From: Crossiella sp. CA-258035
Lineage (GTDB): Bacteria > Actinomycetota > Actinomycetes > Mycobacteriales > Pseudonocardiaceae
Direction of reading: 5' to 3'
Assembly: GCF_030064675.1 (NCBI RefSeq)
Contig: NZ_CP116413.1
Location: 1,954,001-2,018,000, forward strand
Length of the DNA stretch: 64,000 bases
The notes beneath the pieces are model-generated. The model saw only the letters and a list, made by a program, of their open reading frames with translations. It was not told the DNA's origin and searched no databases. The position numbers were made by a program, and so were the translations under genes. Shown here piece by piece: positions 54,986 to 56,766 of this stretch (positions are counted from its first letter, which is position 1; each line of letters opens with the position of its first letter).

Positions 54986-55729
54986 ATGAGCTACCAGGCG
55001 CACTTCCGGGTCTGGCGCGGCGACAGCGCGGGCGGCGGCCTCACCGACTTCACCGTGGAGGTCAACGAGGGCGAGGTGGTCCTCGACATCATCCACCGCC
55101 TGCAAGCCACCCAGGCCCCGGACCTGGCCGTCCGCTGGAACTGCAAGGCGGGCAAATGCGGTTCCTGCTCCGCCGAGATCAACGGCAAACCCCGCCTGCT
55201 GTGCATGACCCGCATGTCCACCTTCACCGAGGACGAGACGGTCACCGTCACCCCGATGCGCACCTTCCCGGTGATGCGGGACCTGGTCTGCGACGTCTCG
55301 TTCAACTACACCAAGGCCCGCGAGGTCCCGGCGTTCAAGCCCCCGGAGGGCGTGGCCCCCGGCGACTACCGGATGCAGCAGGTCGATGTGCAACGCTCCC
55401 AGGAGTTCCGCAAGTGCATCGAGTGCTTCCTGTGCCAGAACACCTGCCACGTGGTCCGCGACCACGAGGAGAACAAGGAGTCCTTCTCCGGGCCAAGGTT
55501 CCTGATGCGGATCGCGGAACTGGAGATGCATCCGCTCGATGCGGCGGACCGGCACCAGGAAGCGCAGACGCAGCACGGGCTGGGACTGTGCAACATCACC
55601 AAGTGCTGCACCGAGGTTTGCCCGGAGCACATCCAGATCACTGACAACGCGTTGATCCCGCTGAAGGAACGGGTGGCGGACCGGCGGTACGACCCGCTAC
55701 TGAAGCTGTTCCGGCGGCGCAAGGATTAG
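54986..55729 (+). CDS. sdhB: Succinate dehydrogenase iron-sulfur subunit
   Basis: A 247-residue subunit with three clusters: [2Fe-2S] from C53, C58, C61 and C73; then C144, C147, C150, C154 and C202, C207/C208, C212 for the [4Fe-4S] and third cluster. It passes electrons from the flavoprotein to the membrane anchor. The last cluster motif CNITKCCTEVCP has two adjacent cysteines. It is the last gene of the operon; the hairpin block begins about 50 nt downstream. Confidence 0.95.
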   Translation: MSYQAHFRVWRGDSAGGGLTDFTVEVNEGEVVLDIIHRLQATQAPDLAVRWNCKAGKCGSCSAEINGKPRLLCMTRMSTFTEDETVTVTPMRTFPVMRDLVCDVSFNYTKAREVPAFKPPEGVAPGDYRMQQVDVQRSQEFRKCIECFLCQNTCHVVRDHEENKESFSGPRFLMRIAELEMHPLDAADRHQEAQTQHGLGLCNITKCCTEVCPEHIQITDNALIPLKERVADRRYDPLLKLFRRRKD

Positions 55730-55777
55730 CAGAGCGACGGGCTGGCTTTTCGGGTTGGCTTTAAAAACCTGTCCGAA

Positions 55778-55939
55778 GTCTTGAGGTTCCCCATGCCCGT
55801 CAACCTGGAGACATCACACCACATCCCAGCGAGCAGACGCTCACAGCAACCGCCGCCAAGGCCTCGCAGCGTGACGGCGGCTGCTCGCTGGGATGTGGTT
55901 TGATTTCGGAAGGTTGACGGGCATGGGGAACCTCAAGAC
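55778..55939 (-). repeat. Large nested hairpin, element copy 1 (inverted)
   Basis: A 162-nt foldback. Outer arms 55778-55806 and 55911-55939 are perfect 29-bp complements. Symmetric 11-nt internal loops follow, then perfect 19-bp inner arms 55818-55836 and 55881-55899, and a 44-nt apical loop. Read on the minus strand, the inner part aligns over about 100 nt with the plus strand of 56189-56299, sharing CCTTCCGA and TCTCCAGG on the two sides and GTCACG, TGCGA and GGCGGCGG in the loop. Stem differences between copies are compensated on both strands. Confidence 0.85.
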
Positions 55940-55942
55940 CCG

Positions 55943-56117
55943 CCTGCGTCTTGGCCTTTGACTTTGATTTTCCCCCCCATGCTTTGATTCCTGCCCGTCC
56001 GGCGAGGACGCTCTTGACTTTGATCTTCGCCTGAAACCCCGAAGATCAAAAGAATGTCCTCGCCGGACGGGCAGACCCCCGGAGGGGTGGGACAAGTCAA
56101 AAGCCGGGACAAGCAGG
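55943..56117. repeat. Large nested hairpin between the two element copies
   Basis: A 175-nt foldback unrelated in loop sequence to its neighbours. Outer arms 55953-55964 and 56094-56105 match at 11 of 12, with CCTGC/GCAGG at the outer ends. Inner arms 55991-56009 and 56056-56074 are perfect over 19 bp, and a further perfect 11-bp hairpin 56019-56029/56040-56050 closes a 10-nt loop. TTGACTTTGAT occurs twice (55959 and 56014). Confidence 0.8.
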
Positions 56118-56165
56118 TTGCGGGGTTGAGCAGGCTGCCGGGGCCGGTTCCAGCGTGCTCGCGAC

Positions 56166-56317
56166 CCTCTCGTCTTCTCCGCACGACCTTCCGACAGCAA
56201 ACCACATCTCATCGAGCGGCCCCGGTCACGTTGCGAAGCTAGGGCGGCGGCAGGTTGCAGGGGCCGCTCGATGAGATGCGGTCAGCAGTCTCCAGGCCGT
56301 ACGGAGAAGACGAGAGG
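56166..56317 (+). repeat. Large nested hairpin, element copy 2
   Basis: A 152-nt foldback. Outer arms 56166-56181 and 56302-56317 are perfect over 16 bp; GCTCGCGACC/GGTCGCGAGC may extend the pairing further out. Inner arms 56205-56223 and 56260-56278 are perfect over 19 bp. It is the same element as 55778-55939 in the opposite orientation: conserved internal-loop and apical-loop words, unrelated but paired outer arms, and covarying inner stem. It ends about 50 nt from the stop of the next gene. Confidence 0.85.
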
Positions 56318-56367
56318 CCCGCTTTGTGGGTTTTCACCCCCGGCTGGAGGCTGGTCGCGAGCCCCGG

Positions 56368-56766
56368 TCAGCGCTTGCGGGCCTGCGTGTGCGGCCCGAT
56401 GACCGTGATCGTGCCCTTGCCCGTCCCCGCCTGCTCCGGGGTGGCCAGCTTGGTCAGTTCGGCCAGGCTGATGCGGACTCCGGCCAGGTTCAGGGCCAGG
56501 CTGGCGTGCAGGGCGTCGCGGAGGTTGTCGTCGGTGATGGCTTCGATGGTGGCGCGGGCCTCGTGCAGCTGGGCCTGGCGCTGGTGGTCGCTGCGGCGCA
56601 GGAAGGTCAGGCCGAGCGCGACCGCGCCCAGGCCGGCCAGCGCGGTGGCGGCCGCGCCCGGGAGGCGGGACGGGTCGCCGAGGTAGAGCGCCAGGGCGAC
56701 CGCGATGGTGGCGGCGCCGACGAGCAGGCCTGCCTGGCCCATCGGGGTGTACCGGTCGGGACGCAT
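56368..56766 (-). CDS. Small membrane protein of unknown function
   Basis: A 132-residue protein with two transmembrane helices near the N-terminus (AGLLVGAATIAVALALYLG and AATALAGLGAVALGLTFL) and a soluble tail of about 75 residues that is helical (HQRQAQLHEARATIEAITDDNLRDALHASLALN in parts). No family is recognised. ATG 56766. It is convergent with sdhB across the hairpin block and downstream of the glutamate transporter cluster on the same strand. Confidence 0.65.
   Translation of the reverse strand: MRPDRYTPMGQAGLLVGAATIAVALALYLGDPSRLPGAAATALAGLGAVALGLTFLRRSDHQRQAQLHEARATIEAITDDNLRDALHASLALNLAGVRISLAELTKLATPEQAGTGKGTITVIGPHTQARKR

Follow-up and report, generated by a model that had tools for sequence, protein, structure and literature searches.

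The window, a 64,000-nt stretch of Crossiella sp. CA-258035 (positions 1954001-2018000 of the single-contig, 9.17-Mb genome G000), contains a 638-nt gene-free gap (55730-56367) between a 247-aa ORF ending at 55729, named sdhB in the original prediction, and a convergent 132-aa ORF beginning at 56368. Two mutually inverted foldbacks, A and B, had been described in this gap, and their coordinates, their shared motifs and the size of the gap were all confirmed here. Foldback A is 162 nt long with 63-nt arms that are 90% complementary, foldback B is 152 nt long, and the two are 75% alike over 111 nt (55804-55914 versus 56186-56296). As also claimed, the outermost 29 bp of A and 16 bp of B pair perfectly and differ in sequence between the two foldbacks. 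Folding stability relative to dinucleotide shuffles gave z = -12.9 for A and -10.3 for B, with 0 of 200 shuffles as good for either; a covariance model scored them at 127.7 and 120.8 bits, respectively, both belonging to the model's own training set. The two-copy description was correct as far as it went. It missed a third hairpin lying between the foldbacks, formed by two facing copies of a 19-nt box, and the organization of the stretch from about 55733/55751 to 56343 as a single composite repeat built of two units (Table 1). Judged from its sequence, the box is able to form a short hairpin, GUCC-GGCGA-GGAC.

Table 1. Features of the composite repeat and its neighbours, in window coordinates.
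Feature	Position	Strand	Basis or remark
Upstream neighbour, 247-aa ORF	54986-55729	+	Reads into unit 1
Whole composite repeat	55733-56345	.	BLAST against 25 own-genome loci and own-genome searches; left edge 55733-55753, right edge about 56339-56348, varying by copy
Unit 1 (foldback A, linker, box; foldback-to-box direction)	55778-56009	+	Hairpin also upstream of the box in other genera
Foldback A	55778-55939	-	Inverted repeat and fold; core 55804-55913
Box of unit 1, CTGCCCGTCCGGCGAGGAC	55991-56009	+	Identical 19-mer in 43 of 150 family genomes
Middle hairpin, two boxes facing	55991-56074	.	Inverted repeat with 25-nt arms, 92% complementary; fold of the + strand
Box of unit 2, GTCCTCGCCGGACGGGCAG on the + strand	56056-56074	-	Sequence and inverted repeat
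Unit 2 (foldback B, linker, box; foldback-to-box direction)	56056-56317	-	
Foldback B	56166-56317	+	Inverted repeat and fold; core 56187-56296
Downstream neighbour, 132-aa ORF	56368-56766	-	Convergent, reads into unit 2

Searches for further homologues recovered many, both in the same genome and across the family. The composite repeat, of about 610 bp, is present whole or in part at 25 loci of the Crossiella genome, besides which a few short matching fragments were found. When the 25 fetched loci were compared by BLAST with the window, 23 gave matches, several of them partial; the window's own copy is among the 23. Foldback A as query hit 15 full-length places at 88-100% identity together with many partial ones, region 55940-56400 retrieved additional copies, and the genome holds 25 + 23 exact 19-mer boxes. 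By eye, the left foldback carries either of two unrelated outer-arm pairs, some copies are truncated, and one (L057) has lost everything between both hairpin tips. Crude gene calling placed 11 of the 25 copies between convergent genes, 11 between tandem genes and 1 between divergent genes, with 2 unclear. Another copy (L056, in the region of G000:C1:6172307) is without foldback B, which is present at L260 (G086:C13:192699; both by eye); the loss lies near the foot of the stem, as expected of palindrome deletion between short repeats.

Among the matches listed across genomes, 82 of 121 boxes had a foldback scoring at least 40 in the 330 nt upstream, versus 3 of 262 random windows from the same loci and 31 of 122 boxes on the downstream side; 11 of 132 boxes too close to a locus end were omitted. 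The distance from foldback to box is 45-58 nt for 58 of the 82 distinct foldbacks, and each of the 82 has 52-78 aligned stem positions. Since most boxes are thus preceded by a foldback at regular spacing, the building unit is a foldback of about 150 nt, a linker mostly of about 50 nt, the 19-nt box and often a T-rich tail, intergenic and either single or in inverted pairs. The order of these parts is constant wherever a foldback was found. The tail (at least 9 T in 20 nt) is not universal, following 44 of 76 hairpin-associated boxes compared with 15 of 54 other boxes. How units are joined differs between genera. In Crossiella, two are paired box-to-box with the boxes inside. At six Saccharothrix loci the boxes are outermost, where they make inverted repeats 33-58 bp long (four perfect, two at 98%); three of these loci have two foldbacks, and in the other three one foldback is truncated (partly by eye). 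Single units occur in other genomes, such as G113 and G129. The sequence that begins the outer arm (GGTCATCCCG) recurs in the linker just ahead of the box, and at some loci, L072 for example, the foldback has apparently been lost exactly between these direct repeats (by eye).

Several loci depart from these arrangements. At L069 (G016:C1:8381996-8385100, about 1434-1685) the box-pair hairpin is flanked by other inverted arms, possibly a third composite type. In the g26 genomes (G113, G129) a second, nested palindrome family follows the box, with GACCTCCCCCGCCCCC ... GGGGGCGGGGGAGGTC around a GTCGCCGAGCAGGCGTGTCAAGG hairpin; it was seen at L068 (about 1600-1727) and at L080, and L085 and L070 are similar. 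Locus L239 has three copies of the 22-mer GTCCTCGCCGGACGGGCAGACC, which is the Crossiella box plus the next three bases, about 90 bp apart with the first near 1438 on the + strand of the locus; none has an upstream foldback, and the surroundings are unlike the family's composites.

The reversed box, used as a control, was absent from the 150 family genomes of Table 1, and in a class-wide sample the box occurred in 2 of 394 genomes, both of the same family, and in 0 of 391 others. A scan of named records yielded at least 120 stretches, of which the 80 listed are a sample of the host genera; these include Crossiella, Saccharothrix, Amycolatopsis, Prauserella, Saccharomonospora, Lentzea, Actinophytocola and Pseudonocardia. 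Fifteen of the 80 listed matches fall outside the family or are unassigned, and they are probably chance occurrences because all 14 with enough flank have no upstream foldback (score below 40). The box is better conserved between genera than is the foldback. A covariance model of the Crossiella core, of the sort originally proposed, was built and matched 4 of 120 sampled family genomes, all of them Crossiella, with at most 32 candidates scored per genome; G016, one of the five sampled Crossiella genomes, is without the foldback core. As the model reaches that genus only, foldbacks of other genera are tied to the family by architecture and box.

The argument first made for this element was that stem pairs changed on both sides point to selection on structure. 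Such changes are real. Across 24 distinct hairpins of the Crossiella genome, 97.2% of main-stem cells are paired, versus 35-45% with the partner slid by 1-3 columns, and 89 cells are changed on both sides against a shuffle mean of 29. These changes affect 10 of 24 main-stem pairs, no excess over the shuffle mean of 9.1 (153 of 500 shuffles as high). A larger alignment from several Crossiella genomes comprised 99 matches fitted to the model, with 85 distinct rows; three rows of the alignment are the opposite strand of another row. Here, 18 of 24 main-stem pairs show both-side changes (22 pairs overall, versus 15.7), 95.5% of cells are paired versus 36.6-41.7% when slid by 1-3 columns, and 367 cells are changed on both sides against a shuffle mean of 101; the alignment leans towards structure because the model was built from 24 of its hairpins. 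In both alignments further pair types were fewer than in shuffles, 500 of 500 and 466 of 500 of which were as high.

The origin of these paired changes was illuminated by a relative, G086, whose flanks are about 95% identical and in which the element occupies 21 of the 25 sites, plus one more. Divergence between the two genomes is 5.2% and 4.9% in the flanks and 1.5% and 4.7% in the outer arms, and reaches 13.5% and 17.2% in the hairpin cores and 13.5% in the middle part (one orthologue is counted twice in these percentages, as L265 and L266 overlap). After removal of that duplicate and of one G055 comparison, the 5' arms of 26 orthologous hairpins fell into 5 identical pairs, 4 with 1-2 differences and 17 with at least 3. 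For 14 of the 17 differing hairpins, the G086 arm is present exactly at another G000 site. Foldback B of site L047, for example, has its own stem in G000 and in G086 is the exact 110-nt core of the window's foldback B; that core is identical (110/110) to hairpins at two other sites of G086, the counterparts of L047 and L037. The pattern shown by these comparisons is one of replacement of whole hairpins, both arms together, by copies from a shared set at other sites.

Because whole hairpins are replaced from a shared repertoire, much of the apparent covariation is inherited by exchange, and because the units of exchange are stem cassettes, compensated stems between copies are by themselves no proof of repeated compensatory mutation. 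The shared set of stems still had to diversify with pairing kept. What stands of the original argument is a dispersed element that conserves its structure; the compensation on which it drew is in part whole-cassette exchange. We infer ectopic gene conversion as the simplest mechanism; for REPs, going by the title of a 1988 review, gene conversion was reportedly proposed earlier. A bolder and rather improbable idea is a dedicated exchange system, in which one copy, as folded RNA or as single-stranded DNA, would be used actively to replace the stem of another, for instance by cruciform strand exchange or cDNA copying. Cells would then carry a small shuffled repertoire of 3'-end hairpins, arms would always change together, and the outer arms and box would serve as fixed recognition sites.

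Mismatches within the stems distinguish the two strands. Main stems of Crossiella read on the outward strand contain 48 A.C mismatches versus 1 G.T, in 11 versus 1 columns, and the same 48 cells are G.U when read on the foldback-to-box strand, which is the strand an upstream co-directional gene would transcribe. Counting only isolated mismatches (three Watson-Crick pairs on each side) in hairpins scoring at least 50, with each distinct context counted once, ratios of G.T to A.C on the foldback-to-box strand were 13:1 in Crossiella (one-sided binomial, 0.0009) and 24:8 in other genera (0.0035), or 37 to 9 combined. Over all mismatches, other genera gave 64:57 distinct contexts, so outside Crossiella the wobble bias is limited to clean stems; several of these loci repeat C.A mismatches and have few G.T. 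Many G.U occur among the apical pairs predicted for the outward strand, which alone would favour that strand over the foldback-to-box strand. With these qualifications, the foldback-to-box strand is shown (STATISTICALLY) to behave as would be expected of RNA, with a weaker bias in other genera.

Gene context points in the same direction. Thirty of 40 single units in other genera lie behind a co-directional gene and 2 of 40 in a divergent spacing, versus 67 divergent spacers of 306 at the same loci; in Crossiella, 30 of 43 units are behind a co-directional gene and 3 of 43 are divergent. These counts, based on gene orientations from a home-made codon-position method and not on annotation, omit units that had no flanking gene (18 in other genera, 2 in Crossiella), and one of the 40 is inside a called gene. 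Since G.U accounts for nearly all Crossiella mismatches on the foldback-to-box strand and most single units lie behind a co-directional gene, the unit is probably a transcribed RNA. Taken as predictions from genome data, the two biases make a good case for the unit acting as RNA in 3' regions; they fall short of proving transcription. Transcription-coupled deamination could also skew the mismatches, and would itself need transcription of the foldback-to-box strand.

The same data bear on an account that assigns the element no RNA role, in which DNA-level palindromes, extruded as cruciforms or as hairpins at replication forks, are kept perfect by template-switch "palindrome correction". Such correction would suit outer arms that are perfect yet unlike between foldbacks A and B, the near absence of one-side G.U changes from outward-strand main stems (1 cell) and the loss of hairpins near the foot, as of foldback B at L056 (by eye), retained in the sister genome. 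However, it should leave G.T and A.C equal on either strand, which the counts of 48 to 1 and, for isolated contexts, 37 to 9 contradict, and 14 of 17 new stems at orthologous sites are cassettes existing elsewhere instead of newly mirrored arms. We regard this account as improbable and already disfavoured. If the unit is RNA, it might instead belong to a family of independent small-RNA genes with their own promoters, the box being a functional single-stranded or terminator segment. The wobble bias, the constant order of the unit where a foldback was found and the stronger conservation of the box would fit such genes. Nevertheless, a simple scan of the window region detected no promoter-like site (other promoter types were outside the scan), the location bias fits read-through from genes, and tens of copies with exchanged stems are unlike single dedicated genes, all of which makes this reading very doubtful. 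A simple terminator scan of the region found 1 candidate against a shuffle mean of 1.0, no excess.

The comparison of the region downstream of sdhB, likewise suggested at the outset, found the element absent at the window site in all three relatives in which both flanks are together. Between the flanks, G055 (L279) has a spacer of about 60 bp containing an ordinary 13-bp hairpin, G108 (L281) has 874 bp with a 282-aa ORF, and G086 (L280) has some 2.5 kb of different, ORF-containing sequence; neither a box nor any BLAST match to the element was found in these stretches. In G016 the window flanks are about 10 kb apart and inverted, and two stretches fetched there are without the element. As what follows the 247-aa ORF differs from one Crossiella genome to the next, this site is a small hot spot where sequence is gained and lost, and it shows gain or loss, not precise insertion. 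Elsewhere, site L060 has a single unit in two genomes and an unrelated spacer in two, and site L051 has the element in G055 and at least part of it in G108, the G086 contig ending there. The site of copy L050 is common to G055 with a flank identity of 83-88%, so some copies are old. An exact empty site with a target duplication was not obtained among the sites compared.

These site differences, together with the spread to 25 loci in one genome and the six Saccharothrix loci whose outermost boxes form inverted repeats, are what would be left by a non-autonomous transposon, either a MITE or a foldback element, that a transposase mobilizes in trans, with the box as terminal inverted repeat and the foldbacks as subterminal recognition hairpins. 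Against it, the boxes lie inside Crossiella copies and so cannot be their outer termini. No target duplication was visible by eye at the own-genome copies or the six Saccharothrix loci (ends are approximate, and an edge motif is present in part of the 25), the window site has no clean empty counterpart, its relatives holding an ordinary short hairpin or other genes, and most copies (21 of 25, plus one) occupy the same site in the sister genome. ORFs within 2.5 kb of boxes were clustered (120 stretches), and of 10 drawn from the larger clusters two were ABC transporters and the other eight matched no Pfam family; there was no transposase among them. We consider a transposon rather unlikely. The clustering and the Pfam scan of these 10 ORFs likewise gave no recurrent coding partner beside the box.

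With regard to known repeats, REPs of the GTAG/CGTC type are described in PMC3733652 as 20-40 bp palindromes with an unpaired tag, with 8-9-bp stems in the CGTC families. They lie after genes, between convergent or co-directional genes, and are paired in opposite orientation; G-T pairing in their stems was read as a sign of transcription (PMC3733652). On that description, the element studied here resembles REP/BIME sequences in its dispersed palindromes, inverted pairing, location behind genes and G-T pairing (PMC3733652), and it was indeed found dispersed, in high copy, mostly downstream of genes and in many cases as inverted dimers. It is unlike REPs as portrayed there in having a hairpin of about 150 nt, 50-odd or more aligned stem positions and a separate 19-nt box; by eye, the box contains CGTC, with no 8-9-bp stem following it. 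Mobilization as a REP by a RAYT was rejected, as the Crossiella genome is without a Y1 transposase: PF01797 gave 0 matches in G000, G086, G016, G064, G113, G129, G145 and G115 and was found in the Crossiella relatives G055 and G108, 2 of the 10 box-bearing genomes searched. None of actinobacteria, Actinomyc, Streptomyces, Frankia, Mycobacterium, Amycolatopsis or Saccharopolyspora is named in the main text of PMC3733652.

Small mobile sequences offer a second comparison, among them RUP and Correia elements. In being non-coding and dispersed, with inverted repeats and presence or absence at sites, the element is like MITEs and the small mobile sequences RU-1/2/3 (PMC2229807, PMC2759123). It is unlike MITEs in that no visible target duplication or partner transposase was found and its ends vary between genera; box-ended terminal repeats are seen at the six Saccharothrix loci, and boxes are internal in Crossiella. 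attC sites are long imperfect palindromes with conserved unpaired bases and GTTRRRY / RYYYAAC core sites. The foldbacks share the first two properties, and attC was rejected since GTTRRRY and RYYYAAC are absent from both strands of foldback A, foldback B and the middle hairpin. A phage origin was also discarded, the box having 0 exact matches in viral contigs.

In agreement with the claim that no named family has these motifs, no attC motif was present and Rfam 15 (4227 families) gave 0 matches at gathering score over the 64-kb window. The element is of the same general kind as the stem-loop families of a bacterial-genome survey, with which it was compared by description and not sequence by sequence (PMC2267715); that survey's genome table lists Corynebacterium and Mycobacterium among its high-GC Gram-positives. 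No description of this repeat was found in searches of the open-access literature. Three identities had been offered for the element, namely a structured RNA, a DNA cruciform target and a mobile foldback. Structured RNA is the best supported by the wobble bias and gene context: covariation and G.U tolerance on the foldback-to-box strand were both observed, with pair counts inflated by cassette exchange. With no mobilizing enzyme, visible target duplication or attC motif found, support for a mobile foldback goes no further than dispersal and site presence or absence.

Collectively, we favour, as moderately probable, a family of REP-like interspersed palindromic repeats of the Pseudonocardiaceae, far larger than classical REPs, that present as transcribed-looking giant hairpins with stems homogenized by recombination. 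The transcript of an upstream gene would run into the unit, where the foldback RNA, with at least 50 pairs, may act as a roadblock that 3' exonucleases do not pass; hairpins of such length are expected to stop these enzymes. The box and U-rich tail would end, or help end, the transcript, and in the window the composite would serve both convergent genes. Replacement of stems would occur by ectopic gene conversion, and spread to new sites would be rare.

In this element, part of the covariation among copies clearly comes from the swapping of entire hairpins, a pitfall for any tool that predicts structured RNA by comparing paralogues. Where expression data are lacking, the strand bias of wobble pairs is an aid in distinguishing RNA hairpins from DNA hairpins. 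Because the two genomes diverge by about 5% in their flanks and differ in most stems at shared sites, both how fast and by what mechanism exchange proceeds can be measured directly. Finally, the element adds to the antibiotic-producing actinomycetes a large, family-wide and apparently new class of non-coding repeat.
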